A model generated the notes under the pieces. It worked only from the letters and a program-made list of their open reading frames with translations. It ran no database searches and had not been told where the DNA came from. The position numbers and the translations under genes were made by a program. DNA of 53,812 nt, from positions 202,793-256,604 of the forward strand of contig CAJWJK010000002.1 in the NCBI GenBank assembly GCA_913041535.1, given 5' to 3'. The stretch's first letter is position 1. Every line of letters begins with the position of its first letter. This document shows positions 36,321 through 53,655 of this stretch, in pieces. Source of the stretch: an uncultured Alphaproteobacteria bacterium (GTDB lineage: Bacteria > Pseudomonadota > Alphaproteobacteria > VGEJ01).

Positions 36321-37466
36321 TTAGCGGATCGCGTTCTGCTGTTGTCTCCGATGAAAACAAGATTGCCAAAAGATCATGCCCCAATATGCAAGCAAGGGTT
36401 GTATGGGTAATAGGTAACGTTCCTGTGAAGGCCCAAATAAAGTGGGTATAACAAACATGAGAACGAGCAAACGTAATGGAGTGGAACCCCTCAGTATTAT
36501 CCATACAAGACCAGGTAAAAGCAGCAAGCTAGGTGCTGCCCTTACAGCTACTATTAATGCTGATGTGTCTCCGTAGCTTGGTCGCATGCCAACCAGGTAT
36601 AGCAGCTTGGCTATTATATAGAGGATCAATGAGAGAGCCTGGTCGATGACTTGGGGTAGCTCCGAAAAAAGACCGTTTATGTACTCGGATGGCGGAACAC
36701 CGAAATACGTTATTTTCTTGCTAACAACAAAAAATATGCCGTAGAAATATGGCAAGTAGAACAAAGCTGTCAAAAGTCCGACAATGATCATAAATCCAAG
36801 TAAATAACTTCTTATGTATGGCGACTGTTGTAAAATTCGTCGAGTTAAATCAACACATACGAACAGAAGTACAGATAAAACACTTGGTCTAGTTATTGCC
36901 ATTAAAATACAGCATGAGAGCCAGATTAAAATATGAGATTGGTTCCAAGAGGGGCGAAAATAATTGACAAAAAACAGGGAAAAATAGAACGCAAAGAGCA
37001 TATCAGTGCTTACGCTTAAGCCATACCAGATCGGACTTGGCAGCAATGCGACTACAGCGAGAAAATAGGGAGAGGCTTGTTGCCTTCGTAGCCAAAGTAT
37101 CCATACCATACAACACGCTGCCGATAAGGCCATCCATACAAGAGCCATCGGAATTGTGTTACCTTGTTCATAGTTGAAGAGGTTTATTAACGTTGGAAAA
37201 AGGGGACCAACATCTACAAACTCTACTAGTTTATAATTCCATGAAGCGTAAAACTGGGAAAAGAGATCTACTATTTCCTCAAATCGTAGATCTCTTTGTA
37301 ACTGGGCAGCTACTTCATAGAATCCAAAATCGGACCCTTCTGCGTGCAGGGGTGAAATATGATGATCCCCAATCTTTATCGGAAAAAAAATTGCGTATAT
37401 GAGCACTGCACAGCGTGCCCCTACGGCGATAAGAATGGAGACCATAGCTATGGAGGAGATTTTCAT
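36321..37466 (-). CDS. Polytopic membrane protein, GT-C-type glycosyltransferase candidate
   Basis: About nine to ten hydrophobic segments run through the 381 residues. The first extracellular loop contains acidic positions (AEGSDFGFYE near residue 42), the feature that carries catalytic aspartate or glutamate in GT-C enzymes such as ArnT and PMT relatives. FGPSQERYLLPIQPLLAYW near the C-terminus resembles the end of GT39/GT-C proteins. It may use the polyprenyl-phosphate sugar made by the GT2 enzyme encoded convergently; that is inference. It lies 50 bases after the aminotransferase-like gene. Confidence 0.6.
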   Translation of the reverse strand: MKISSIAMVSILIAVGARCAVLIYAIFFPIKIGDHHISPLHAEGSDFGFYEVAAQLQRDLRFEEIVDLFSQFYASWNYKLVEFVDVGPLFPTLINLFNYEQGNTIPMALVWMALSAACCMVWILWLRRQQASPYFLAVVALLPSPIWYGLSVSTDMLFAFYFSLFFVNYFRPSWNQSHILIWLSCCILMAITRPSVLSVLLFVCVDLTRRILQQSPYIRSYLLGFMIIVGLLTALFYLPYFYGIFFVVSKKITYFGVPPSEYINGLFSELPQVIDQALSLILYIIAKLLYLVGMRPSYGDTSALIVAVRAAPSLLLLPGLVWIILRGSTPLRLLVLMFVIPTLFGPSQERYLLPIQPLLAYWGMIFWQSCFHRRQQQNAIR

Positions 37467-37516
37467 TCACTACATATGGCAAAGCTAAATAATATTATTA
37501 GGGGTTATCTTACACA

Positions 37517-38623
37517 TTAACGACAATGGGCCAATATAATCTGGAGGGCGCGTCCAACAGCAGACCTGGCAGCTGGAAAAGTAGGCAATGTTATCAAATG
37601 CTCGCTGATGGCTCTTGCATTTTCGCTGCAGTGTCCGTAGCTGGACCATTCGTTTTGACCCTTTATGATACGCTGTTTACGTAATGTTATTTCCACAGCA
37701 CGTTTTACACTCGAATCTTCAAAGATGACAGGCAGGCGTAAGGACGCTCCACGCTCAATACAAACTATCGATGGCACAGATATCCTTGGCACATTTTTTA
37801 AAGCCAGCGCTGTTTCTTTTGCTAGCTGGCGGCGACCAGAGATTTGATTAGAAAGATGGTCCAGGGTTAGAGATATGTACGATGAGGCGGGCCAACTCAA
37901 CGCCAGTTTCTTGCGGTTGATGTTTGGTACTTGGCTTGCGTCTCCTGCAAGAGGAATGATATTCCAGACTTGTGGGTTAAGAAGGATGCTTTGTCCGTAG
38001 GCAGCAAATAGGTTAATCACGTTAGTAAGCTTATTGGTTTGGGGTGCATGAAGACTTAGCCACAGACTATCGTTTTCATTGCGGGCCGTAACTAAGCCAC
38101 CCCAGTTCAAAGGTAAACTCTTTCCTGGACCAAAGCTGAATACTGTAATATCAGCATCTGACCATAACCAAGAAGCAAGATCTGGCGAAAACGCCTGGGC
38201 TGCATCAGCAACAATCTTGCACGGTTTGAGCAGAGACATTGCTCTTCTCTTTTCAAGTTCTGATATATTAGGAGGGTGACCAAAATAGGAGACGATGGTG
38301 GCAATTGATGCCCCTTTCTCAACTGCTGACTGGAGTTTATCTAGGTCGTAAAACCACGTTTTCGAGTTGATGGGGCAAAAGATGGGCGACATGTTTGCTG
38401 CGTGCACGGCATCAATTACATTTTGACATATAAAATCTGGCACGATCACACCACAAGACGGCCCAATAGTTTCACCCGCCGCGAGTGTCTGAAAAGCTAG
38501 AGTAAGACCGTCTGTTCCAGATGCGGTGAAAGTACCTTGTGTGGCCAGACGTTGGCGGCCAAATATAGCCATCACAATGTCTCCGAATCGGGCAGGAAAG
38601 TGAACTGGGGGCACAGCTACCAT
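37517..38623 (-). CDS. DegT-fold PLP aminotransferase-like protein
   Basis: The 368-residue protein has SGTDGLTLAFQTL near residue 35, VPDFICQNVIDA near 61, ADAAQAFS with Asp140, and FSFGPGKSLPLNWGG with the candidate Schiff-base Lys168, in the order seen in DegT/DnrJ/EryC1 enzymes. The active-site wording FGPGK and the reduced C-terminus set it apart from the three clear sugar aminotransferases here. A sugar or amino-group transfer reaction is likely, but the substrate is unknown. It lies 37 bases after the methyltransferase gene in the leftward assembly operon. Confidence 0.7.
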   Translation of the reverse strand: MVAVPPVHFPARFGDIVMAIFGRQRLATQGTFTASGTDGLTLAFQTLAAGETIGPSCGVIVPDFICQNVIDAVHAANMSPIFCPINSKTWFYDLDKLQSAVEKGASIATIVSYFGHPPNISELEKRRAMSLLKPCKIVADAAQAFSPDLASWLWSDADITVFSFGPGKSLPLNWGGLVTARNENDSLWLSLHAPQTNKLTNVINLFAAYGQSILLNPQVWNIIPLAGDASQVPNINRKKLALSWPASSYISLTLDHLSNQISGRRQLAKETALALKNVPRISVPSIVCIERGASLRLPVIFEDSSVKRAVEITLRKQRIIKGQNEWSSYGHCSENARAISEHLITLPTFPAARSAVGRALQIILAHCR

Positions 38624-38660
38624 TACAGTCTCTTAGTCATTAGCAAAGTAGACTGGTATA

Positions 38661-39362
38661 TCAACGTTTTAGGCCTTTTATAAGAAAATTCGTGGCCCAT
38701 TTTTTTATGATGGGAGTCATGATGGGAGGTTCACCTTGCAAACTAAAACCGGGGTAGTATGTGATCCATATTGTGGGTTCCAGATGAACTCCAAGTTCAT
38801 CCAATATAGCGCGGCAGTGTCCTGGCATTATCAGCCTAGGGTGTTGTGTCCCGAGCGTGGATGTTAGAGGCCGAATGAGTCTTCGAAGCATTGAATGGAA
38901 ATTGAGCCCTCCGATCAATAAAGATCCGCCAGGTCGTAACATCTTTGTCAGAATCGGTAATACCTCTAACGGTTGAGATAGACAGGTCATTGCTTCAACA
39001 CAGATTACCGTGTCAAAAGAGTTTGGGGGGAAAGGAGGTTCCAGCATATCCGCGCAAACAGGAATGACGCCTGAAGTTGACGCCACGTTGAGCATTCTAG
39101 AGCTTAGGTCGAGGCCTATTATGTCATTTTGGATAGTTAGCGCCGATGTTACGTCACCGTCACCACATCCGACATCGAGAATTCGTTGATCTCGTAGGCT
39201 CCCCAGCGTCTTTTGGACAGTGTGGTGCATTAAGCGTGCGTTAGCGTTTGAAAGATAACCGTTGCGGCTTGATTTTACATCTGTGGTATCAGCTTTTTGA
39301 TCAAAGTATTCTCGCCAATAGTTGGATTCTTTGGAAAGTGAAGGTTTGTGCGGGTTTGGCAT
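38661..39362 (-). CDS. Class I SAM-dependent methyltransferase
   Basis: The SAM loop ILDVGCGDGDVTSA lies at about residues 60-73, followed by IIGLDLSSRM and DTVICVEAMTCL, the motifs I to III of small-molecule methyltransferases. The 233-residue length is typical of UbiE/Methyltransf_11 members. The start overlaps the stop of the FemAB-like gene by one base, so the two are linked. The target is unknown; the neighbours suggest a sugar or lipid-linked intermediate. Confidence 0.82.
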   Translation of the reverse strand: MPNPHKPSLSKESNYWREYFDQKADTTDVKSSRNGYLSNANARLMHHTVQKTLGSLRDQRILDVGCGDGDVTSALTIQNDIIGLDLSSRMLNVASTSGVIPVCADMLEPPFPPNSFDTVICVEAMTCLSQPLEVLPILTKMLRPGGSLLIGGLNFHSMLRRLIRPLTSTLGTQHPRLIMPGHCRAILDELGVHLEPTIWITYYPGFSLQGEPPIMTPIIKKWATNFLIKGLKR

Positions 39363-40276
39363 TAATAGTCAGCAAGGTAGTGGCAGAGCCAAGGGCCTAG
39401 CCGATCTGCGAGTGGTCGTGGAATTGCTCTCCAGGTGCGCTGAGCTAATGCTAGTCTGGAATAAACATCTCGAGACGGATGTGGTTGAGTATGTAAGCCC
39501 ACTGCTTGAGCTCCCCACTGTCGTTTAAATCGGTATGTGTTGCTTAGAAAAGGTGATCGGCCAAAATCAAAAACGCTGGCACCCTTTCTTTCAGCATCTG
39601 ATATTGCTTGCCAATATAGCAGGTGGTTTGGGCATAGTTTCAAATATTGTCGATTTGATGCTGCAAACGGAATCCAGACAAGTTTTCCGTCTTGTAGCGC
39701 AACAAAAGCAGCAACGGGTTCATCATCATTATAAGCAACATATACTATTGCATCCAATTCTCGACACATACCTTCGAAAAGTTCGAATGGCGGTAGCGGA
39801 GCCCCGTAAGAATGGAGGGAGCCCGCTAGTAATCGGTAAAATTGCCTAAGGCGTTTATCATCAGAGCTAGATTCTATTCGGATTTTGTTATGCTTGGCTT
39901 TACGAATTTGATTTCGACACTTACCGCTCAGTGCCTCGGACCATAATTTATTGGAGGAGCGGTTTACGAGGGAAAGTCGCATGGTAACAGGGTCACTCAG
40001 AGAGAATGCACTCTGTTGAGGAGCTAACAATCGGATTTGATAACGATAAGGCGCGGCTGCAGCTGCGAGCTCTTCCGCATCTTCCCTTCCAATATCTGTA
40101 TAAGAGAGGAAAGGGAGATATGAGAGCGTGGTTTTGCCTGAAAGAGAGGGGACGCAAACGAACTCACCTTTATGCCTCCAGTGCAAAGCCCGCGAAACCA
40201 TGGAGGCCCATCGGGATACGAAGTCTTTTGAGTGACGGATGTGGAGAGGTTCCATGCCTGCTGTCGCGTGTGTCAC
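39362..40276 (-). CDS. FemAB/GNAT-fold acyltransferase-like protein
   Basis: The 304-residue protein has the layout of PF13480-type, FemAB-related proteins. LSGKCRNQIRKAKHNKIRIE lies near residue 118 and a conserved acyl-acceptor half around YVAYNDDEPVAAFVALQDG. FDFGRSPFLSNTYRFKRQWG near residue 248 is the FemAB-like end motif. Such proteins occur beside exosortase/PEP-CTERM-type exopolysaccharide genes and probably transfer an acyl or aminoacyl group. The GTG start overlaps the deacetylase stop by four bases. No exosortase gene is seen in this window. Confidence 0.72.
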   Translation of the reverse strand: MTHATAGMEPLHIRHSKDFVSRWASMVSRALHWRHKGEFVCVPSLSGKTTLSYLPFLSYTDIGREDAEELAAAAAPYRYQIRLLAPQQSAFSLSDPVTMRLSLVNRSSNKLWSEALSGKCRNQIRKAKHNKIRIESSSDDKRLRQFYRLLAGSLHSYGAPLPPFELFEGMCRELDAIVYVAYNDDEPVAAFVALQDGKLVWIPFAASNRQYLKLCPNHLLYWQAISDAERKGASVFDFGRSPFLSNTYRFKRQWGAQAVGLHTQPHPSRDVYSRLALAQRTWRAIPRPLADRLGPWLCHYLADY

Positions 40277-41109
40277 TGTTGACGCACTTCACTATACATT
40301 TTGCTGGCTGTCGTGAAGCGATAACCTTTCTCGTGAAGGAAGCCTATAAATTCACGCAAAGAATCAAAACTTTCTCGGCGATTTCCTCTCCATGTGTATT
40401 GATACAGGTATTTAATCGGTTTCGGCAGCGGAGCACTTGTTAAGCTTTGTGTTCGGACTAGATCGACCATGTGCATGTTATAAACGAGCAAACGCGGCAA
40501 GCGGCAGAGGCGCCGCAGGAGTGCCTCCCCAGGCTGAGTTATCAAGCGGCGATACGCTTGATTTAAAGGTATTGGAATGCCGCGCCACACAGCAATGGGA
40601 AACTCGGTAATACAGTTGCCAAGAAGAAAATAATCGGCATCTTCAAACGCGAGCCGTGGTTTTCCGCCACGACCGATTGCAGGCAGAAGAGATGAATCCC
40701 ATTTGAACGAATTAGCAACAAGAGCGTGGAAAAGGTCATTGCTCAACTTATAATTTCCTGCGCGATACCCCTCTGGCAGACGACAAACAAATTTTTCGTA
40801 AGCGGCAATTCCAAGAGAAAGAGATTCAGGTGTTTCGTTGTTAGCACTATGATCATAGCAATGAAGCTGGACGTCAGCCCCTGAGGAAATCAATTGTTCG
40901 CATAGGTCTGGGCGAATAACAAATAATTTGCCTTCCACGAACGCCGTCAACGGTATGTTAAGAGCGGAAAGCATCTCAATAAGTTCAGGTAGGCGACTGA
41001 GACCTTCATGTTGAGGGCCGCTATAGTCGGTTTCTACATCAATTGAGATAATGGCTATTCTCTCTTCGATTTTGCGGGCTTGAATGGCAAAGTCAGGTGA
41101 AAGCTCCAT
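40273..41109 (-). CDS. Polysaccharide deacetylase (NodB-type) family protein
   Basis: I place the start at the ATG at 41109, where AGG lies ten bases upstream and the upstream gene has already ended; a longer frame from 41241 overlaps that gene. The NodB core begins with IISIDVETDYS near residue 18, whose acidic residues stand for the usual Asp pair. The metal-binding HxxxH is HCYDH near residue 82. The first motif deviates from the canonical TFDDG, so activity should not be assumed. No signal peptide is visible. It is followed at once by the FemAB-like gene. Confidence 0.75.
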   Translation of the reverse strand: MELSPDFAIQARKIEERIAIISIDVETDYSGPQHEGLSRLPELIEMLSALNIPLTAFVEGKLFVIRPDLCEQLISSGADVQLHCYDHSANNETPESLSLGIAAYEKFVCRLPEGYRAGNYKLSNDLFHALVANSFKWDSSLLPAIGRGGKPRLAFEDADYFLLGNCITEFPIAVWRGIPIPLNQAYRRLITQPGEALLRRLCRLPRLLVYNMHMVDLVRTQSLTSAPLPKPIKYLYQYTWRGNRRESFDSLREFIGFLHEKGYRFTTASKMYSEVRQQ

Positions 41110-41120
41110 ATTGAGTTGAC

Positions 41121-42110
41121 CTATTTCTGTCTGTGCAAAAGCTGGAACGCAGGCCACCAGAGACCCACCTGTACGAATGGTATCACCAAGAGTAACAGCC
41201 TGGTGGTTAAGCTCATTGAAATGGCTAATACGTAACTCCATCCGAACAACATGAACAGACTGGCAAGTCCAGCCTCGTTTGCACCGAACCCCCCAATGGT
41301 TTGTATAGGAATGGCGCTGATCAAATTGTACGCAGAGCCAATACTAAGTATCTCTCCGATATTGAGATTAATCTGTATGGCACGTAAACAAAAATAAATA
41401 ACACCCAACGTGCAAAGCCACCCAACTAACGTGGCAAGAACAACCTCAAAATATTCAGAGTAGCTGAGGCGGTGCATATACCAGCCCCTGATGGAAAATA
41501 GGGTTGATAATAGTCTTCGTTGCCAACGTTTGCGACGGCCCAAGATGCGCATAATCCCCATTGCGAACACCGACGCGACGCGGTCAGTTTTGTGTATGGT
41601 GATTATGAGACAGATGATGATTATGATGCAGGGTAGTACGTAGTATCCTGCGACATGGCCCTCGGCTGCTAGAATTGCAAGCCCAATCGCTAGTAGGCAA
41701 ATCACAATAAGGAGGTCGCAAAGGCGTTGGAACGCCAGATTGGCGATAGCTGCGCCAACTGGTATCGAAAACCTTTTCTGCAACATAATTATATATGCAA
41801 TTTCACCAAGACGAGCGGGTAGAACAGCCAAGTATGTCTCATGGAAAAGTGTTACATTGAGACGATGCCAAAAACTATGCATAGTGCGGTTTCGCATTAG
41901 CACACCCAATCGCCAACTCATCGCTAGGTTTGATAGAAAAGCACAGCACACTGCAATAATAGCCATATCCGTTCTTATATGTTGGATCGTTGCGTTGAAT
42001 AATCCGATATCCAGTTGACTTAATAGACCGCCCAACAGCATGACGGAAACTATGAATGAAACCACCCAAATTCGCGCACGTCTGCGCGCTGACATTCTAA
42101 AACCGATCAT
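41121..42110 (-). CDS. Lysylphosphatidylglycerol synthase TM-like / flippase-like membrane protein
   Basis: Around eight hydrophobic segments span the 329 residues. LPARLGEIAYIIMLQ near residue 96 and PIQTIGGFGANEAGLASLF near residue 271 match the conserved ARxGE and GGxGxxE motifs of the AglD/MprF-type membrane domain (UPF0104). Only the membrane domain is present, without the lysyl-transferase part. Such stand-alone proteins occur in glycolipid and polysaccharide loci, where lipid or lipid-linked sugar translocation is suspected but generally unproven. Confidence 0.8.
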   Translation of the reverse strand: MIGFRMSARRRARIWVVSFIVSVMLLGGLLSQLDIGLFNATIQHIRTDMAIIAVCCAFLSNLAMSWRLGVLMRNRTMHSFWHRLNVTLFHETYLAVLPARLGEIAYIIMLQKRFSIPVGAAIANLAFQRLCDLLIVICLLAIGLAILAAEGHVAGYYVLPCIIIIICLIITIHKTDRVASVFAMGIMRILGRRKRWQRRLLSTLFSIRGWYMHRLSYSEYFEVVLATLVGWLCTLGVIYFCLRAIQINLNIGEILSIGSAYNLISAIPIQTIGGFGANEAGLASLFMLFGWSYVLAISMSLTTRLLLLVIPFVQVGLWWPAFQLLHRQK

Positions 42111-42143
42111 AGTGCACGCAATTATTGCAAGTAAGAATGGGCA

Positions 42144-43367
42144 TTAACCCGTATTCAGGAGTTCTTCGTATATAGAAAGAGTTTCTTCTGTTACTTTTGT
42201 GTCGCTAAATTCAGTACACGCTAGGGAACGGCCCTGTTTTCCCATTTCTTTTCGCAACTCTTTATCTGTTACAATGGTGGTGAGCGCGTCAGCCAAGGCC
42301 TTGCTATCACCAGCTTTTACCAAAAGACCGTTGTTGCGGACAATTTCCCGGCATCCAGGTATGTCTGTTGCAACAATTGGGCGTCCAGAAGCTGCGGCTT
42401 CTATAAGAATTTTTGGCACTCCTTCCCCATAACGGGAGGGCAGACAGACAATGTGTGACGCGGCCAACACGTCTGGCATATCTTCGCGTCGCCCCCACCA
42501 TTCAATTAACCCTTCATCCACCCAGGCGAGAAGTTGTTTTTCAGGTACGGCCGTTGCAATTTTCGTTGTCGTGTTGCCAACGATCACAAAGCGTGCCCTC
42601 ACATTTTCTGCTGAAAGGTAACGAGCAGCCTGGATAAATTCTGCTACACCTTTCTCCCAGAGTAGGCGTGAAGCAAATACTATCAGAGGAGGGCCATTGG
42701 ATTCGGGTTTTGGATAAAATGCGTCGAGATCAACACCAGACCCCCGAATCAAAACCAAATTTTTTTGCTGGACGGCACCTAGTCGTTCCAGTTCATTTGC
42801 GTCACCTGTGTTCTGAACAATCACGCGAGCATTTCGGTGGGCGGTTGCAATTGCATAAAATCGACAAACTAGCCAACGGAGTATAGTAGCCAGCGTTCCC
42901 TTTGACGTGAATATATACCCAAGGCCAGAAACTGCACATACGATTGCGTTAGTTCTTGAGATCCGAGCGGCTAAGCCGCCGTAGAGAACTGGCTTTATGG
43001 TCACTAGATGCAGAACATCTGGTTTTAATCGTTTAAAGAGGCGATAAAGCGTGACAAATGTTCTTAAGTCGGCAAAAGGATTGCGGCCTCGACGTTGTAA
43101 AAAGATTGGATGCACGGAGATGTTTTCTGCTCGAAGTGACAGTGAGTCATAGTCACTAGGAGCCCATACGTTGTCAGTAGGTGCTGCTACATGTACTTCA
43201 AATCCTGCTTTTTGAGCGGCGCGAGCAATGTTAAGACGGTGTGATGAAAAAAAGTACGCCTCGTTTACAACGAATAGAAGGCGTTTTGCAGATTGTTTGA
43301 CCTCGGCGCGGTCGATGCACGATTCTTTTCGAATTTTGGACGATGCCTGGTAACTGGTTTTGATCAA
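42144..43367 (-). CDS. Family 4 glycosyltransferase
   Basis: This 407-residue GT-B enzyme has an N-terminal LLFVVNEAYFFSSHR strand and loop and DVLHLVTIKPVLYG near residue 115. IVFASRLLWEKGVAEFIQAA lies near residue 230, and the donor-binding E-x7-E region is SRYGEGVPKILIEAAASGRP near residue 315. GT4 enzymes are retaining transferases for nucleotide-activated hexoses and N-acetylhexosamines. The WbpL/CapM-like look suggests an amino-sugar transferase. The start is a TTG at 43367, and it heads the leftward assembly operon. Confidence 0.9.
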   Translation of the reverse strand: MIKTSYQASSKIRKESCIDRAEVKQSAKRLLFVVNEAYFFSSHRLNIARAAQKAGFEVHVAAPTDNVWAPSDYDSLSLRAENISVHPIFLQRRGRNPFADLRTFVTLYRLFKRLKPDVLHLVTIKPVLYGGLAARISRTNAIVCAVSGLGYIFTSKGTLATILRWLVCRFYAIATAHRNARVIVQNTGDANELERLGAVQQKNLVLIRGSGVDLDAFYPKPESNGPPLIVFASRLLWEKGVAEFIQAARYLSAENVRARFVIVGNTTTKIATAVPEKQLLAWVDEGLIEWWGRREDMPDVLAASHIVCLPSRYGEGVPKILIEAAASGRPIVATDIPGCREIVRNNGLLVKAGDSKALADALTTIVTDKELRKEMGKQGRSLACTEFSDTKVTEETLSIYEELLNTG

Positions 43368-45703: not shown

Positions 45704-46948
45704 GTGGAAGCACTCTATAGCGGAGGCCTAATCTTTGATGGAGAGAGGCTGCTCGAGAATCATGGTGTTATGGTGAAGGGTGGCCGTATAGTTCGGTTGG
45801 CGCCGTCGACCGAATTTGTAGGATTTACCGGGAAACATGTGGACACTACAGGGCAAACCGTTCTTCCAGGTTTGATTGATTGTCACATACATATATGCAT
45901 CGGGGCTGAAGCTGATCTGGTTGCCGTACTTGGGCAGCTTTCCGAATCAGAACTTGCTGTCCGTGCTATGGAGAATGCACAGTCAACTTTGCGTGGTGGA
46001 GTTACTTCTGCGCGGGACCTTGGGGGAAAATCCTTTGTCGAAATAACTGTCAGGGATGCCATTAATGCGGGTCGTTGTCTAGGTCCAACATTGATGTGTG
46101 CTGGACAACTAATCTGTATGACGGGTGGACACGGTTCGTGGCTGGGTACGGAGGCCGATGGTGCTGAGGAGATTGTTCGTGCTGTGCGAAATAATATAAA
46201 GGCGGGTGCTGATCTCATAAAGGTGATAGCGACTGGCGGCGTGCTTACGCCTAATGTTGATCCGATGCAGGCTCATTTCGATAAAGCCGAATTATGTGCG
46301 GCAGTATACGAGTCCCATCGTTTTGATAGAAGGATTACGGCGCATGCTCTCGGAGCACCGGGAATTAGTAACGCAGTTGAGGCTGGAATTGATTCAATAG
46401 AGCATGGATTTCAGATCACAGACGAGCTGGTTTCTGAGATGGTTTCGAAAGGTATAGTCCTGGTTCCTACAATATCGGCACTTCAGGAGATAGTGCAAAA
46501 CGCGAAGTCTGGCATACCAGATTACGCGTTTGAGAAAGCTTCTCGTTTCTGTGAGATGCACCGTAGTTCAATTCGTGAGTTTCATGCTGCTGGAGGAACT
46601 ATAGCTATGGGTACTGATGCAGGAACTCCTTTCAATTATCACGGCAACAATGTTCATGAGCTTGGTTATATGGTCGATTATGGGCTTAGTCCTCTTGAGG
46701 CATTGCAGGCTGCTACAAAACACTCTGGTGATTTGTGTAATTTGTCAGATCGAGGATTGGTGCGGGAGGGCTATTGGGCAGATCTGCTCATAGTTTCCGG
46801 AAATCCAGTTCAAGATATTTCTGCGGTATCTAGGGGGGAAAACCATGTGCGTGTGGTCAAGGAGGGGTTTGATGTATTTGATCATCTTGGTCCTTACATA
46901 GCAGACGGGCGAGCGCAAAGGTTCATTCATGATGAACCATCATTTTGA
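45704..46948 (+). CDS. Binuclear metal-dependent amidohydrolase (prolidase/imidazolonepropionase-like)
   Basis: The 414-residue protein has a full metal site of the amidohydrolase superfamily: His61 and His63 in DCHIHIC, Lys173 in LIKVIATGG (the likely carboxylated lysine), His214 in TAHALG, His234 in SIEHGF and Asp305 in GTDAGTP. It resembles the Xaa-Arg/Lys dipeptidase and carboxypeptidase branch (Cc2672-like) that cleaves N-acyl or peptide bonds. It starts with GTG at 45704 after an AGGGGGA ribosome site and has no signal peptide. Its last 20 bases overlap the start of a COG0523 GTPase gene. Confidence 0.87.
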
Positions 46949-47972
46949 AACTGCCGAGTTTTCTATTAGCAAAGTTAAGACTTCATCCACTGCTAAGTTG
47001 CGCGCTTCGGTCATTACAGGGTTTCTGGGTAGTGGAAAGACCACACTGGTGTCTGGTATTCTCAAACAGCCGCAAGGGGAACGTGTTGCCGTCATTGTTA
47101 ATGAATTTGGTGAGGTGGGGCTTGATCACCAGTTAGTGAGACATGTGGCAGAGGATATCGTTCTACTCGACACAGGGTGTCTGTGCTGTGCTCTTCGGAA
47201 TGACTTAGTGGAGACGATTGAACAGTTGCTCGAACGAAGGGATGACATGTCGATACCATCGTTTGATAGAATTCTGGTAGAGACCAGCGGTTTAGCAGAG
47301 CCAGGTCCAGTAGTACACAGTTTTATGTCAGAGGCCGAGATTGTATCGAAACTGTGTTTTGATGGTGTTATAGCCACGGCGGATGCGATCAATTTTGAGA
47401 GACAAGTAGAAACTTTTTCAGAGACAGCGAACCAACTTGCGTTTGCTGATCGAATAGTTCTAACCAAGACTGACATCGCCACAGCGGCTCAAGTAAATGT
47501 TGTGCGTAATCGTCTCCGTTCAATTAATCCTGGCGCACCGATCATTGTTTCTACAGGAGCACCAATTCACATGGGGGAGCTTTTTGGCGCAGGTCTTTAT
47601 GACCCTGTTACCCAAGTAACCAACGTTTCGGGTTGGCTTCGAGAGGAGGCTTATGCAACGTCACATGCACACGGCCACGGCATTAGATCCTTTTGCCTTA
47701 ACCTTACCGAATCAATTGATCTGGTTTCGCTTACTCGCTGGCTTAGCTTGCTTACTGCGCTTCATGGTGAGGAGATATTGCGGCTAAAGGGAATTATTGC
47801 GATCATTGGAGAGGATCGTCCATTAGTGATTCACGCTATCCATCATCTTTTTCACCCGCCCGCATTTTTGGAAAAATGGCCATATGGGATGAAAGAAGGG
47901 CGAATAGTGTTCATCACTCGAAACCTTTCCGAAGCGGATGTGCGTGATAGCATGAGCGCTTATATAAAATAA
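46929..47972 (+). CDS. COG0523 (CobW/ZNG-like) metallochaperone GTPase
   Basis: Walker A is GFLGSGKTT at residues 31-39. The metal-binding GCLCC sits at about 83-87 with Cys84, Cys86 and Cys87. The switch region [12 protein letters not shown] and the guanine-specificity motif LTKTD follow. A His-rich linker (SHAHGHG near residue 241) precedes the C-terminal CobW_C domain. Such GTPases deliver zinc, cobalt or iron to client enzymes. It overlaps the amidohydrolase gene by 20 bases, so that metal enzyme is the likely client. Two adjacent ATGs at 46929 and 46932 are possible starts. Confidence 0.9.
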
Positions 47973-48202
47973 GGTGTGGTTACGATGAACATGTTGCTTT
48001 GCCGTTTCGTTTTTGGTTTAGGGTTCAACAGTTCTATTCTCTTTGGGAATAAATCATTTAATTCATTAGATGTAGCGGTGGGGTATCGGCGGCGGGTAGG
48101 CATGGCTAAGAAGGCACAATCATTCAGTGCATCGAAGCGTTTGCCGTGGAGAGGTTGGGCTAGTTTTAGTTCGGCAATAACCGCCACGAAACATTAGATT
48201 TA

Positions 48203-50488
48203 TTGATATTATCAGGCCGTACAATTCAAGCTAGGTTAAAAATCATTACAATAGCTGCCGTCATTACAGCGTTAGTGACGGCATCCTGTGCATTGATAGT
48301 ACCATTTCCGCCGAAAGTTGATTTAGAGGAACGGCTTACTGCATTCCCGCAAACGAAACTGCCGTTATCAGCGCCAGCAAAAGTCTATTGGAATTTAAAC
48401 CAGGTGCCATTCGTTGATGCTAAGACTGACGAGGATGCAGCATTTGTTATAGGGCTTATCCATGCTCATTTGAGGCTTGGGCAAATGGAGGTAATGCGTC
48501 GTATTGCTGCCGGGCGCATTTCTGAAATGGGCGGTCCGCTCGCGATAGACATAGATCACTCATTGAGAGTGCTCAACCTTGGTCGCGTTGCGTCACAGGT
48601 TGTAGCTTCCATGCCAGACGACACACGACGGTGGCTCGAATCTTTTGTCCTTGGAATTAATTACTACCAAAATAGTATTGAATTCCTACCACATGAGTTT
48701 CAGGTTCTTGGATTGGAACGAGAAGTCTGGACTGCTGAAGACGTTATAACTATTGGCAGACTTGCCTCAGTCGATGTTAACTGGATTGTTTGGTACCGCC
48801 TGTTAGCGTTGAGGAATGAACCTGGCTGGGCAGTGCTTTGGTCTCGTTTGCTTGACGAGGGAACCGCATCACTACCAAGCTTTATTTCTGAAAACTCAGA
48901 CAGTTTGAATTCGCTTACCGATATTGTTTTGGGTATGAGTCGATCGGGTAGTAATGCGGTTGCGATATCAGGGGACAAAAGTATTACTGGAAGTGGGCTG
49001 ATAGCTAGCGATCCTCACCTTGGCCTAACTGTGCCAAACCTGTGGCTTATCGCTGGATATAGGTCGCCATCATATCACGCTGTGGGAATGATGATTCCCG
49101 GCATCCCGTTTATTGCGTTTGGTCGTAATAGGGATATTGGTTGGGGGGGAACCAATATGCGTGCAGCTAACTCTGATCTTTTTGACGTTAGTGTTCTCAA
49201 TCCAGAAAGCTTTGTGGAGAGGGAAGAAAAAATCAAGGTAAGGTGGTGGTTTGACAAAAATATTACGGTACGAGAAACGGAATTTGGCCCAATAATCTCT
49301 GATGCTCCTGCTGTTCCATCTATCTCAGATGATCAGATAGGCTTGCGGTGGATTGGTCACCAGCCAAGTGATGAGCTGACGTCGATGCTAAAGGTTAATC
49401 GCGCACGGAACTGGAACGAATTCAAGGATGCATTGGAAGGGTTTGCGGTTTCACCACAGAATATGGTTTTTGCTGACAGGCATGGCCATATAGGCATGAT
49501 AATGGCAACTCATATTCCCCAGAGGAAAGTTGCCAAACCTAAAGATTTAGTCTTGCAGCCACACGACTTAGATCACTGGAGCAGTATTCTGACAAGTCAG
49601 GATCTCCCAGCAAGCTATAATCCGAAGTCGGGCTATCTTGTATCGGCCAACAATTTAGCTACAGAAACAGATATGCCGATCGGATATTTTTTTTCATCCA
49701 ATGATCGTGTTCATCGTTTGAGCGAGCGTCTTGTCGAATTAGACCGAGTCTCTGTCAGGGACCTTGAAGAGCTGCAACGTGATGTTTTCATGCATTCGGC
49801 AGTTGAATTGCGAAATGCTTTTCTCGAACGGATTAAGACATTATCTAACACACACAAATTGGATACACTACAATTTCTCAATGTTTTGGAAGACTGGGAT
49901 GGGTATTACCACAAGACGTCAGCTGGGCCCGTCGCAATCGAACTCCTGACGTACTATTTTGTTGATAATTATTATAGTGAAAGCCAAAAGGCTGCCTACG
50001 CAGCAACTGGCCGACAAATGACGAGCTTGCTTCACGAACTTAATACAGCTAGCAGGACAGTTATTGATGCTGCTCTACATCCAGCTTTATTGTCTGCAAG
50101 TGCTAAGTTTAAAGAGTTTTCGACATGGGGAGATATGCACTCGATAAGCCTATCTCATCCGTTGAGGTTCATACCGATCATCGGACGTTACTATCGCTTT
50201 GGAACTTTTCCAGTCTCCGGTGGGAGTACGACGATAATGAAAACGGCTAATCGACTTACAGATCAACGTCACACTGCAAGCTACGGTTCAAATGCACGCC
50301 ATATCTCTGATATGTCAGATCTTGATTCCAATTATTTGGTTCTTTTGGGTGGCCAAGATGGCTGGATTAACAGTACGACTTTTCTTGATCAAGTGACTCT
50401 CTGGCGCACGGGAGGTTATGTGCGTGTCCCTATGAGGATGCGGACAATACAAAATGACTTTCCTTATCTCATGGAGTTGACACCATAA
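48203..50488 (+). CDS. Penicillin-acylase-family Ntn hydrolase, exported, possible lipoprotein
   Basis: The family cleaves amide bonds of N-acyl compounds (penicillins, acyl-homoserine lactones, N-acyl amino acids) after self-processing into alpha and beta chains. The 761 residues start with a hydrophobic signal (about 13-33) ending in TASC, a possible but imperfect lipobox with Cys29. The alpha chain runs to about residue 249. The predicted beta-chain N-terminal nucleophile is Ser250 in RSGSNAVAISG, followed by LIASDPHLGL, GIPFIAFGRNRDIGWGGTN and the late GGSTTIMKTANR. The start is a TTG at 48203 without a clear ribosome site. The 230 bases before it hold no supported gene. It is the only visibly exported enzyme of this group. 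Confidence 0.87.
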   Translation: MILSGRTIQARLKIITIAAVITALVTASCALIVPFPPKVDLEERLTAFPQTKLPLSAPAKVYWNLNQVPFVDAKTDEDAAFVIGLIHAHLRLGQMEVMRRIAAGRISEMGGPLAIDIDHSLRVLNLGRVASQVVASMPDDTRRWLESFVLGINYYQNSIEFLPHEFQVLGLEREVWTAEDVITIGRLASVDVNWIVWYRLLALRNEPGWAVLWSRLLDEGTASLPSFISENSDSLNSLTDIVLGMSRSGSNAVAISGDKSITGSGLIASDPHLGLTVPNLWLIAGYRSPSYHAVGMMIPGIPFIAFGRNRDIGWGGTNMRAANSDLFDVSVLNPESFVEREEKIKVRWWFDKNITVRETEFGPIISDAPAVPSISDDQIGLRWIGHQPSDELTSMLKVNRARNWNEFKDALEGFAVSPQNMVFADRHGHIGMIMATHIPQRKVAKPKDLVLQPHDLDHWSSILTSQDLPASYNPKSGYLVSANNLATETDMPIGYFFSSNDRVHRLSERLVELDRVSVRDLEELQRDVFMHSAVELRNAFLERIKTLSNTHKLDTLQFLNVLEDWDGYYHKTSAGPVAIELLTYYFVDNYYSESQKAAYAATGRQMTSLLHELNTASRTVIDAALHPALLSASAKFKEFSTWGDMHSISLSHPLRFIPIIGRYYRFGTFPVSGGSTTIMKTANRLTDQRHTASYGSNARHISDMSDLDSNYLVLLGGQDGWINSTTFLDQVTLWRTGGYVRVPMRMRTIQNDFPYLMELTP

Positions 50489-50542
50489 TTTGTAATGTAG
50501 CGAACATACATTTTAACTTTCGACTAATGGCCGAATAAAAGT

Positions 50543-52069
50543 ATGGATGTAACCTCGTTTCTTCGAAGCTATGCCGCGGTTCGTCGCTTTTGGAATAACT
50601 CGTGTAAGCCAGGTTTATCTCAATCATTGACGCTTCAGTCTCTTCTGCATCGGGCTGCATTAACTCAATTTGGTCGAGATCACATGTTTTCGTCTATCGC
50701 CAACGTGGCTGAATTTCAGAATAGAGTTCCATTGCGCAATTATGAAGATTATTGGATTGATTATTGGCAGAAAGATTTTCCAAGGCTGGAGAATCAAACT
50801 TGGCCCGGCTTAAATCCTTTCTTTGCTGAAACGTCGGGCACTACAACGGATATCACGAAATATATTCCTTGTTCATGGGATATGTTGCGGTCAAACAGGC
50901 GTGCAGCAGTTGATCTGCTTGTTTATCATCTTGCCCGCCGCCCTGAAAGCCGTGTTATGGGGGGTAAACTATTTATGCTGGGTGGAACCTCGGCACTGAC
51001 AGAGCTAGATTCGGGCATCTACAGCGGTGACATAAGTGGGATTGCGATGCGACGGGTCCCGTGGTGGGTACGCAGTCGCTGTTTTCCACCCACTAACCTA
51101 GCGGATCTAGGTGATTGGGATGAAAAAGTGCCGCTTATAGCTGAAGCCTCGCGTTTTGAGGACATACGGTTGCTCGGTGGAACTCCCAGTTGGCTTTTAC
51201 TATTCATACAAGCATTGACTGACTGCCAGGAGGATGATTGTCACCTAACATCACACTATCCAAACTTAGAGTTGCTTGTTCATGGCGGTGTGAGTTTTTC
51301 CCCATACCGTCGTCGATTTGAGACATTACTGGAGGGGTCTCATGCAGAATTGTGTGAAATCTACGCCGCGAGCGAAGGGTTTTTCGCCGTTGCTGACCGT
51401 GGTGACGGAGAGGGATTAAGGTTGATACTTGACCACGGGATTTTTTATGAGTTTGTTCCCGTTGAGGAGTTGCACAGCAGGAACCCGACCAGACACTGGG
51501 TTGAAACGATAGAAACCGACGTCGATTATGCCGTGGTTGTCAGCACGTGCGCTGGCGTTTGGGGGTACATAATTGGTGATACTGTTAGGTTTATCGATCG
51601 TGATGTTCCAAGACTGTTAGTTACTGGGCGGATTTCTTACACTCTTTCGGCATTTGGGGAACATTTGATTGCAGCTGAAATTGATAAGGCAATCGTTTAT
51701 GCGGCAAACTCAATTAATGCTCACGTATCTGACTATAGTGTCGGATCTATTTATCCGAGTGCTAGCGAGGCGCGTGGTGGGCATCTCTACATAGTGGAAT
51801 TTTCCGACTCACTGGTTGATAACGATAGGCTTGGCGTATTTGCCGAGTCTGTTGACGAGTCCCTACGGGAGATGAACAGAGATTATTCTGTCCATCGTGC
51901 AGGTGACTTCGGACTTCAGATGCCTTCATTTCAAGCGGTGCCGCCTGGAACCTTTGCAGCGTGGATGAAAAAACGTGACAAACTTGGTGGCCAGAACAAG
52001 GTTCCGCGGGTTATTAATGAACCAAGTCTCTTTGATGACCTTCAACGGTTTGCGCAGAGAACACAATAA
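50543..52069 (+). CDS. GH3 family acyl-acid amido synthetase
   Basis: GH3 enzymes adenylate a carboxylic acid and transfer it to the amine of an amino acid, as for plant auxin and jasmonate conjugates. The ATP-binding FFAETSGTTTDITKYIP lies at about residues 93-109. LELLVHGGVSFSPYR lies near 245, CEIYAASEGFFAV near 272 and GYIIGDTVRFIDRD near 338, which matches the family from end to end. The 508-residue length is typical of bacterial members. It starts 54 bases after the acylase gene and is probably cytoplasmic. Acid and amine substrates cannot be predicted. Confidence 0.9.
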   Translation: MDVTSFLRSYAAVRRFWNNSCKPGLSQSLTLQSLLHRAALTQFGRDHMFSSIANVAEFQNRVPLRNYEDYWIDYWQKDFPRLENQTWPGLNPFFAETSGTTTDITKYIPCSWDMLRSNRRAAVDLLVYHLARRPESRVMGGKLFMLGGTSALTELDSGIYSGDISGIAMRRVPWWVRSRCFPPTNLADLGDWDEKVPLIAEASRFEDIRLLGGTPSWLLLFIQALTDCQEDDCHLTSHYPNLELLVHGGVSFSPYRRRFETLLEGSHAELCEIYAASEGFFAVADRGDGEGLRLILDHGIFYEFVPVEELHSRNPTRHWVETIETDVDYAVVVSTCAGVWGYIIGDTVRFIDRDVPRLLVTGRISYTLSAFGEHLIAAEIDKAIVYAANSINAHVSDYSVGSIYPSASEARGGHLYIVEFSDSLVDNDRLGVFAESVDESLREMNRDYSVHRAGDFGLQMPSFQAVPPGTFAAWMKKRDKLGGQNKVPRVINEPSLFDDLQRFAQRTQ

Positions 52070-52129
52070 GCTCGTCTGGTGTGATGCTGCATTATCTGCT
52101 CTTTTTTCGGTTACTATTAAAACAGCTGT

Positions 52130-52846
52130 TTGCAAGGAGATGGTACGACTTACACTGTTATTGGTCGATGTCAGAGAAGCGGACGGCTTGGTATTGGGAT
52201 AGCTACGTTTTCGCTAGCCGTCGGCAGTTACTGCCCATTTGTTCAGCCAGGACAGGCTGCAATTTCTACGCAGGCCTACGTGAATCAGCACCTCGGAGTC
52301 AAAGCCATGCACTTATTAAAACAGGGTTGTTCCCCAAAGCAGGCGGTCAAGGAAATATCTGGGGAGGATAATTACATTGACTATCGGCAGGTAGGAATAG
52401 TTGATGGGAAAGGGGACACAGCTGTTTTTTCCGGTTCCCATATCAGGGATTGGTCTGGGGATATTTCTCGTCAAAATTTGGTTGCGATGGGCAACGCATT
52501 GTGCGGATCTGAAGTTGTTGAAGCAATGGCTGATGCTTTTGATTCCCAACCAGCGCATGATCTCGATGAGCGCTTATTATCGAGTTTGGAGGCAGGACGA
52601 GATGCAGGAGGGCAAGTCGGAACGAATGGACATCTAGCGGAACGGTCGGCCGTAGTTTGCGTTTACAACCAGGAAATCTTTCCAGAGCTCGATCTCCGTG
52701 TGGATTTCCATGAGCAGGCGGTTGATGAGCTCAGGCGGCTACATGCAATTTATAAGCCATACTTATCATATCATGAGTTGCGTCGCCTTTCTCCACAACA
52801 GTCTCCGCCGCGAGAAGCGTGGATGCGCGATAATTTGGATGACTGA
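52130..52846 (+). CDS. DUF1028 Ntn-hydrolase-like protein with an unusual start
   Basis: The protein matches DUF1028: an N-terminal strand TYTVIGR, then GRLGIGIATFSLAVGSYCPF, QAYVNQHLGVKAMHLL, and GYxD-like VGIVDGKGDTAVFSG. DUF1028 proteins have an Ntn-hydrolase-type fold, and their reaction is unproven. Only TTG at 52130 is available as a standard start after the in-frame TAA at 52118, and it has no ribosome site. AAGGAG at 52134-52139 is spaced five bases from an in-frame ACG at 52145, exactly where homologues begin. True initiation may therefore be at ACG, giving 233 residues. It sits between GH3 and the glutaminase gene. Confidence 0.8.
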   Translation: MQGDGTTYTVIGRCQRSGRLGIGIATFSLAVGSYCPFVQPGQAAISTQAYVNQHLGVKAMHLLKQGCSPKQAVKEISGEDNYIDYRQVGIVDGKGDTAVFSGSHIRDWSGDISRQNLVAMGNALCGSEVVEAMADAFDSQPAHDLDERLLSSLEAGRDAGGQVGTNGHLAERSAVVCVYNQEIFPELDLRVDFHEQAVDELRRLHAIYKPYLSYHELRRLSPQQSPPREAWMRDNLDD

Positions 52847-52932
52847 GGCTATCTTTGGCTCGAGAATACTTGCGTTCTCTCAAAGATATTCGCTAGGGTT
52901 TTTTGTTTGTTTTACGCATTTAGGTAGTAAAC

Positions 52933-53655
52933 GTGCAGATTCTTGCCGTAATCAGTCACCCGCGTGCGCTTCCTTATTTGATTGGCGAGCGGATAACAGC
53001 ACGGGGTGGTACATGCCACAATATTAATCCTCATAAGGGTGAGGCTCTCCCAGTTAGCCCAGCGGGCTACGACGGTTTATTGGTGCTCGGTGGCTCAATG
53101 AGTGTTGCCAATCCAGAATTTGATCCAGTCTTTAGGCCGCTCATGAAACTGATTCGTGAATTTCATGAAGATCAGAAGCCAGTACTCGGCGTATGTCTGG
53201 GCAGCCAACTCCTTGCAAGAAGTTTTGATGCTGAAGTCTATCCTCTCAACGATCTTGAGGTTGGGTATACCCCGCTGCATATCACTGAATCGGGAGTGAC
53301 TGATTCATTGTTAACAGGGCTTTCCCGACGTCAAACGATCTTCGAGTGGCACGAAGACACGTTTGACCTTCCTAACGGTGCAGAGCTTTTGATGAGTGGG
53401 GACAACTGCTACCACCAAGCATTCAGGATTGGTTCCACTAGCTATGGTTTTCAGTGTCACTTCGAAGTTGATGCTCGCCATATTGATGTCTGGATAAAGG
53501 AGGGTAGAGAAGATCTCGTGCATTACCATGGCACTGGTGCCGACGAAGTGGAGCGTGATATTCGTCGGCAAATGACTCGGCATGTGGGGCTATCTAGCAG
53601 ATTTGCTTATCATGTGGGAGATCGTTGGATCGACCTTGTCTCTGAGCGATGCTAA
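52933..53655 (+). CDS. Class I glutamine amidotransferase (GATase1) family protein
   Basis: The 240-residue protein has the class I triad: Cys88 in LGVCLGSQLLA, His176 and Glu178 in QCHFEV. GGSMSVAN near residue 53 is the oxyanion loop. It resembles stand-alone GuaA-like or gamma-glutamyl hydrolase proteins that either supply ammonia or cleave gamma-glutamyl amides. No synthetase domain is attached. The start is a GTG at 52933 with only a weak AGG upstream. It closes the rightward group of amide-bond enzymes. The 157 bases after it hold a weak 6-bp stem (GCAGT arms near 53780-53802) and no gene. Confidence 0.85.
   Translation: MQILAVISHPRALPYLIGERITARGGTCHNINPHKGEALPVSPAGYDGLLVLGGSMSVANPEFDPVFRPLMKLIREFHEDQKPVLGVCLGSQLLARSFDAEVYPLNDLEVGYTPLHITESGVTDSLLTGLSRRQTIFEWHEDTFDLPNGAELLMSGDNCYHQAFRIGSTSYGFQCHFEVDARHIDVWIKEGREDLVHYHGTGADEVERDIRRQMTRHVGLSSRFAYHVGDRWIDLVSERC

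Follow-up and report, generated by a model that had tools for sequence, protein, structure and literature searches.

The stretch of DNA analysed here (the window, 53,812 nucleotides) comes from an uncultured Alphaproteobacteria bacterium, and on the right it runs to where contig C2 stops, 157 bp past the last stop codon. Near this end, at positions 45704-53655, six + strand open reading frames (ORFs) were confirmed from the ORF list and by Pfam and NCBIfam profile searches. They belong to the families that an earlier note on this DNA had assigned to six co-directional genes: an amidohydrolase, a CobW-family GTPase, a penicillin-acylase-type N-terminal nucleophile (Ntn) hydrolase, a GH3-family acyl-amino acid synthetase, a DUF1028 protein and a class I glutamine amidotransferase-like protein (GATase). 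Among all six genes, only the adjacency of the acylase and GH3 exceeded chance in our survey of alphaproteobacterial genomes. The features of this pair are as follows.

48203..50488, + strand: acylase, S45 Ntn precursor of 761 amino acids (Penicil_amidase PF01804, E = 2.7e-143); core of the pair
48287..48289, + strand: codon of Cys29, putative lipidation site (VTAS-C), placed by the lipobox position in orthologues
48950..48952, + strand: codon of Ser250, predicted Ntn nucleophile after the Gly249-Ser250 processing site, placed by the orthologue alignment
50489..50542, + strand: intergenic gap of 54 bp between acylase and GH3, from the ORF coordinates
50543..52069, + strand: GH3-family acyl-amino acid synthetase, OlsH-like, 508 amino acids (Pfam, NF052613); core of the pair
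50831..50860, + strand: GH3 nucleotide-binding motif 1, TSGTTTDITK, aligned with TSGTTQGATK of Singulisphaera acidiphila OlsH
51356..51376, + strand: GH3 nucleotide-binding motif 2, EIYAASE, aligned with ETYPCSE of OlsH
51554..51580, + strand: GH3 nucleotide-binding motif 3, GVWGYIIGD, aligned with GMWSHLIGD of OlsH

The survey covered 385 alphaproteobacterial genomes, which were searched separately with GH3 and with the acylase. GH3 orthologues were defined as matches with E < 1e-140, and 8 genomes with only remote GH3s (25-31% identity) were set aside. Acylase orthologues were required to score at least 469 bits (54 genomes), with a distant paralogous group scoring no higher than about 270 bits. 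Three genomes with intermediate acylase fragments (G075, G217 and G345) were set aside, and the sole same-family relative (G001), in which an acylase fragment of 52% identity is cut by a contig end, was scored positive. Genes of the relatives were called by a simple script that produced spurious ORFs in high-GC genomes, and the pair itself was checked by tblastn. This search identified an orthologous GH3 in 46 of the 385 genomes. The acylase lies directly upstream of GH3, on the same strand, in 29 of the 46 (19 families, own genome included), and 10 more carry an acylase orthologue elsewhere in the genome, unlinked. An acylase orthologue was thus present in 39 of 46 genomes with GH3 versus 16 of 339 without it (Fisher p = 2.5e-33, genomes treated as independent; 7.4e-32 when G001 is excluded). 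The gap between the two genes in relatives was 41 bp or less in 24 of the 29 measured and -1, a stop/start overlap, in 6. Flanking genes differ between families and the acylase-GH3 pair persists. The earlier note had proposed looking beside bacterial GH3 genes for conserved penicillin-acylase, DUF1028 and GATase neighbours; the acylase proved to be conserved there, and the other two did not.

The acylase matched Penicil_amidase PF01804 at 479.9 bits (cut-off 21.3) over profile positions 1-674 of 675. Gly249, Ser250, His272 and Asn483 are invariant among 20 acylase orthologues. The closest solved relative in a profile search was D-succinylase (7EBY, 266 bits), followed by glutaryl-cephalosporanic acylase (about 188) and PvdQ (about 60). 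Ser250 and His272 align with identical residues of the D-succinylase of Cupriavidus sp. P4-10-C (7EA4, 7EBY), Ser250 with the serine of its GSN; the nucleophile serine and the DPH motif are both matched. The acylase would be expected to cleave itself into two chains. D-succinylase has been described as acting on D-amino acids (PMC11241749). In bits, the first hit reaches only about 27% of a self-match-level relationship, and a pairing of D-succinylase with a GH3 is not known from this analysis. A structure prediction of the acylase from three sequences was too poor (mean predicted local distance difference test score, pLDDT, 43.7) and was not used. Some members of the family are acyl-homoserine lactone acylases, and the profile search does pick up PvdQ. 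We therefore considered whether the acylase acts mainly on acyl amides of foreign origin, acyl-homoserine lactones among them, with GH3 detoxifying or storing the released acid. PvdQ is however distant, at about 60 bits against 266 for D-succinylase, and the acylase scored 26.2 bits on the PvdQ model NF051460, far under its cut-off of 950, which makes such scavenging or quenching improbable.

The location of the acylase was assessed by motif inspection, with no dedicated predictor. A canonical lipobox occurs at the same place in 36 of 56 acylase orthologues. The window acylase has VTAS-C-A after a hydrophobic stretch, slightly off consensus with an unusual threonine at -3; its export signal is better termed a probable lipoprotein signal, with Cys29 as the putative lipidated residue. 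Lipid anchoring thus appears usual across the orthologues, and not universal. Residue +2 after the cysteine in the lipobox orthologues is A, S, G or T (once W), and never Asp. Under the enterobacterial +2 rule, a residue other than Asp at this position favours the outer membrane, and an outer-membrane location would accordingly be the favoured one for the acylase.

All three domains of GH3 (N, M and C; PF03321, PF23571 and PF23572) scored above the cut-off of 23.6, at 86.4, 47.0 and 62.5 bits, respectively (E = 2.7e-24, 2.7e-12 and 7.7e-17), and all three nucleotide-binding motifs are kept in the alignment with OlsH. The sole NCBIfam match was the OlsH model NF052613, at 551.8 bits (E = 1.3e-165), under its cut-off of 620. 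On the same model, three linked alphaproteobacterial GH3s scored 565-592 bits, that of Indioceanicola 610 and S. acidiphila OlsH 991.1; five other non-planctomycete GH3s of the same clade fell between 565 and 610. OlsH of the planctomycete S. acidiphila uses ATP to join ornithine to a free fatty acid, which yields N-acyl-ornithine, and other amino acids have been suggested for GH3s outside planctomycetes (PMC12493201, J Biol Chem 2025). The window GH3 shares 47% identity with this enzyme. Maximum-likelihood analysis placed the planctomycete OlsH rows in one clade (Shimodaira-Hasegawa-like approximate likelihood ratio test, SH-aLRT, 99) and the proteobacterial rows in another (99). By profile and tree placement, the window GH3 is a relative of OlsH, and we do not file it as OlsH because of its sub-cut-off score, its separate clade, the absence of OlsI and OlsG from its locus and the coexistence of OlsB in the genome. 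Plant GH3 acyl-amido synthetases share the family and the reaction type with it, but they are remote in sequence (best E = 1.6e-9) and their hormone substrates are not indicated. The auxin-like or algal compound suggested in the earlier note therefore finds no support, given that GH3 groups with the bacterial OlsH-type enzymes.

The surroundings of the two clades also differ. Among 18 planctomycete-clade loci, 17 carry OlsI and OlsG upstream of GH3. Neither gene gave a match in any alphaproteobacterial GH3 locus, where the acylase occupies this upstream place. A search of the own genome for OlsI returned only generic alpha/beta hydrolases of about 25% identity. The shared position raises the idea that the acylase replaces OlsI, working as an envelope acyltransferase that adds a second fatty acid to the N-acyl amino acid made by GH3. 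Ntn acylases do form acyl-enzyme intermediates and, as is known of penicillin acylases, are capable of acyl transfer in vitro. The enzymes of the family characterised so far are however hydrolases, acyl-CoA and acyl-ACP donors are absent outside the cytoplasm, and genomes with OlsB presumably already hold an OlsA-type O-acyltransferase, so that we regard this role as even more improbable than the cleavage of foreign acyl amides. As separate observations, loci L116, L142 and L130, all of family f30, carry an alpha/beta-hydrolase-like gene upstream of the acylase that has no match to OlsI, except that in L130 the acylase is absent from between this gene and GH3; in L114 and L155 the GH3 genes are duplicated in tandem, neither with an adjoining acylase.

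N-acyl-ornithine is also the product of the OlsB/OlsA ornithine-lipid route, and OlsB has no sequence relationship to GH3 (PMC12493201). The own genome encodes an OlsB above the equivalog cut-off (328.7 versus 320 bits) on contig C3, unlinked to the pair, which contradicts the idea of GH3 as the only lyso-ornithine-lipid synthetase of this genome. An OlsB-family gene was likewise found in 44 of the 46 GH3 genomes. Because lyso-ornithine lipid can already be made via OlsB, the GH3 product is more likely to be a different N-acyl amino acid, or a pool under separate regulation.

The presence of OlsB bears equally on the order in which the two enzymes might act. The envelope acylase could free fatty acid from outside acyl amides or from membrane aminolipid, including OlsB-made ornithine lipid, and GH3 could turn the freed fatty acid into a different N-acyl amino acid, in which case the acylase would act before GH3. 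This order would suit an acylase outside the cytoplasm and the requirement of OlsH for free fatty acid, of which Escherichia coli cells are believed to contain little (PMC12493201). An OlsB-family gene was moreover present in 54 of 54 full-acylase genomes versus 107 of 133 with only distant acylases, and none was detected in G001, the 55th acylase genome. However, OlsB-family genes are widespread in the class in any case (253 of 385), differences in genome size and kinship confound the comparison, and the substrates are here again read from sequence. We consider this supply of fatty acid to GH3 rather unlikely.

Taken together, we propose that the acylase and GH3 form one unit that handles a single shared class of N-acyl amino acids or aminolipids, and we give this reading a probability of about 0.5. 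A shared compound class is the simplest view because a ligase that makes acyl amides and an exported hydrolase that cuts them stand in one probable operon. The functional unit would be a two-gene operon, acylase then GH3, with cotranscription presumed. In the cytoplasm, GH3 would use ATP to activate a free fatty acid and join it to an amino acid; as with OlsH, the product would be an N-acyl amino acid or lyso-aminolipid. The acylase, exported and usually lipid-anchored in the envelope, would hydrolyse compounds of this class at the amide bond, releasing fatty acid and amino acid. Their joint effect would be turnover or remodelling of an acyl-amino-acid lipid, in a genome that already has the OlsB ornithine-lipid route. 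The idea that GH3 builds and the exported acylase splits an N-acyl amino acid was part of the earlier note; it is reasonable for these two genes, given the recurrent pair and OlsH as the best family, and does not extend to the other four.

Several points weigh against this proposal. The association shows shared function and not a product-to-substrate relation, and we infer the substrates of both enzymes, as well as a single pool shared by them, from sequence only. Sixteen genomes have the acylase but no GH3, and seven have GH3 but no detected acylase; since each occurs alone, the two do not strictly need each other. As a separate observation, in 18 GH3-less loci inspected for a replacement N-acyltransferase, the acylase had no common partner, its neighbours being, by eye, GST-, spermidine-synthase-, flavin-reductase- and aldehyde-dehydrogenase-like. 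About one third of the acylase orthologues lack a canonical lipobox. Because GH3 is cytoplasmic and the acylase exported, the product must cross the membrane, and no transporter recurs near the pair in the surveyed loci; an RND-type gene lies near a few pairs (e.g., in Indioceanicola) and is not general. The Fisher counts, finally, ignore phylogeny; the argument rests more on the adjacency kept amid changing flanks.

A narrower form of the proposal is an envelope-spanning two-enzyme acyl-amide cycle, with GH3 inside, a lipoprotein Ntn acylase outside, and a lipid other than OlsB-made ornithine lipid passing between making and breaking. We put this forward tentatively, as a possibility that is clearly less probable than a shared compound class. 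If true, alphaproteobacteria make and unmake an N-acyl-amino-acid lipid distinct from OlsB-made ornithine lipid. The company of a specific exported acylase and of OlsB suggests that GH3 does not simply serve ornithine-lipid synthesis, and points to a further acyl-amino-acid lipid or to the turnover of one. The roles of GH3 homologues outside planctomycetes were left open by the OlsH paper (PMC12493201), and a recurrent partner gene narrows this question.

The pair also extends beyond the main survey. Acylase-GH3 adjacency was found in three further loci of metagenome-assembled genomes, two labelled Alphaproteobacteria (L008, L011) and one labelled Terriglobia (L012), and in the cultured Indioceanicola profundi SCSIO 08040, where the pair lies on the plasmid record NZ_CP030127.1 (GH3 560549-562063, acylase 562092-564269; gap 28 bp). 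A cultured strain with the pair makes the idea testable. A genome from a different class of this phylum, G482, also has the pair (L223 = G482:C44:31471-32973), and its GH3 branches within the alphaproteobacterial clade (SH-aLRT 91 for a group of seven rows). This single, thin case suggests joint transfer of both genes, as judged from the tree. GH3s of this type were otherwise rare in a phylum-wide genome draw. On the GH3 tree, the linked state requires at least 11 changes, which an ancestral pair with repeated loss would explain. Published descriptions of the acylase-GH3 pair were absent from the open-access literature searched. The earlier note knew of no described pathway with this set of genes; in the survey, the six-gene set is not a conserved unit. 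The pair supplies a genomic context for a penicillin-acylase subfamily for which none was found described before.

The four remaining genes of the group look like incidental neighbours.

45704..46948, + strand: amidohydrolase (Amidohydro_1, E = 2.4e-38); neighbour only
46929..47972, + strand: CobW-family GTPase (CobW/CobW_C, E = 1.9e-51); neighbour only
52130..52846, + strand: DUF1028 protein (E = 3.8e-55); neighbour only
52933..53655, + strand: class I glutamine amidotransferase-like protein (E = 1.5e-16); neighbour only

A comparison of the GH3 surroundings in the relatives with the six window proteins showed that none of these four recurs beside the pair in the surveyed loci. The matches found there were scattered and weak (GATase in L114, CobW in L141, CobW and amidohydrolase in L147), with 29-37% identity in very common families. 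A single acyl-amino-acid pathway of all six genes, as first envisaged, could appeal to their co-direction, to the short gaps from acylase through GATase in this genome and to the fact that every family is amide-related. Shared direction by itself is weak evidence of a unit, and promoter- and terminator-like sites were no commoner than in shuffled sequence. With four of its genes scattered in relatives, the pattern that the earlier note had itself named as speaking against its pathway, the six-gene scheme is very improbable.

The individual genes fit this picture. The amidohydrolase and CobW genes overlap by 20 bp and may, given the overlap, be cotranscribed; 230 bp separate CobW from the acylase gene. 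At about 50% identity, the nearest amidohydrolase orthologues belong to G002, G042 and G058. These three genomes lack a GH3 match, nor is there a CobW within 1.5 kb of the orthologues. These findings argue against the amidohydrolase and CobW as partners of the pair. The amidohydrolase scored 282.2 bits on the Xaa-Pro dipeptidase model NF051886, under the cut-off of 500, and by this score it is related to Xaa-Pro dipeptidase and is not assigned as one. Against the DUF1028 protein as a partner stands its membership of a multi-copy family here, with five matches in the own genome including that of the window. The other four lie at C1:332441-334544 (three in tandem) and C21:14333-14974; G001 also has five DUF1028 matches, and the family is expanded in this small genome. 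Four tandem amidohydrolase paralogues, 28-33% identical to that of the window, occupy C1:23412-28710 of the own genome, and a comparable array is found on contig C25 of G001.

The transfer-messenger RNA (tmRNA) of the host matched the alpha_tmRNA family at 253 bits, which identifies the genome as alphaproteobacterial; a search of the assembly for 16S returned none. Elsewhere in the window, the - strand at 36321-43367 carries genes resembling a surface-glycan cluster, judged from their translations alone: an aminotransferase, a methyltransferase, a polysaccharide deacetylase, a flippase-like membrane protein and a glycosyltransferase.

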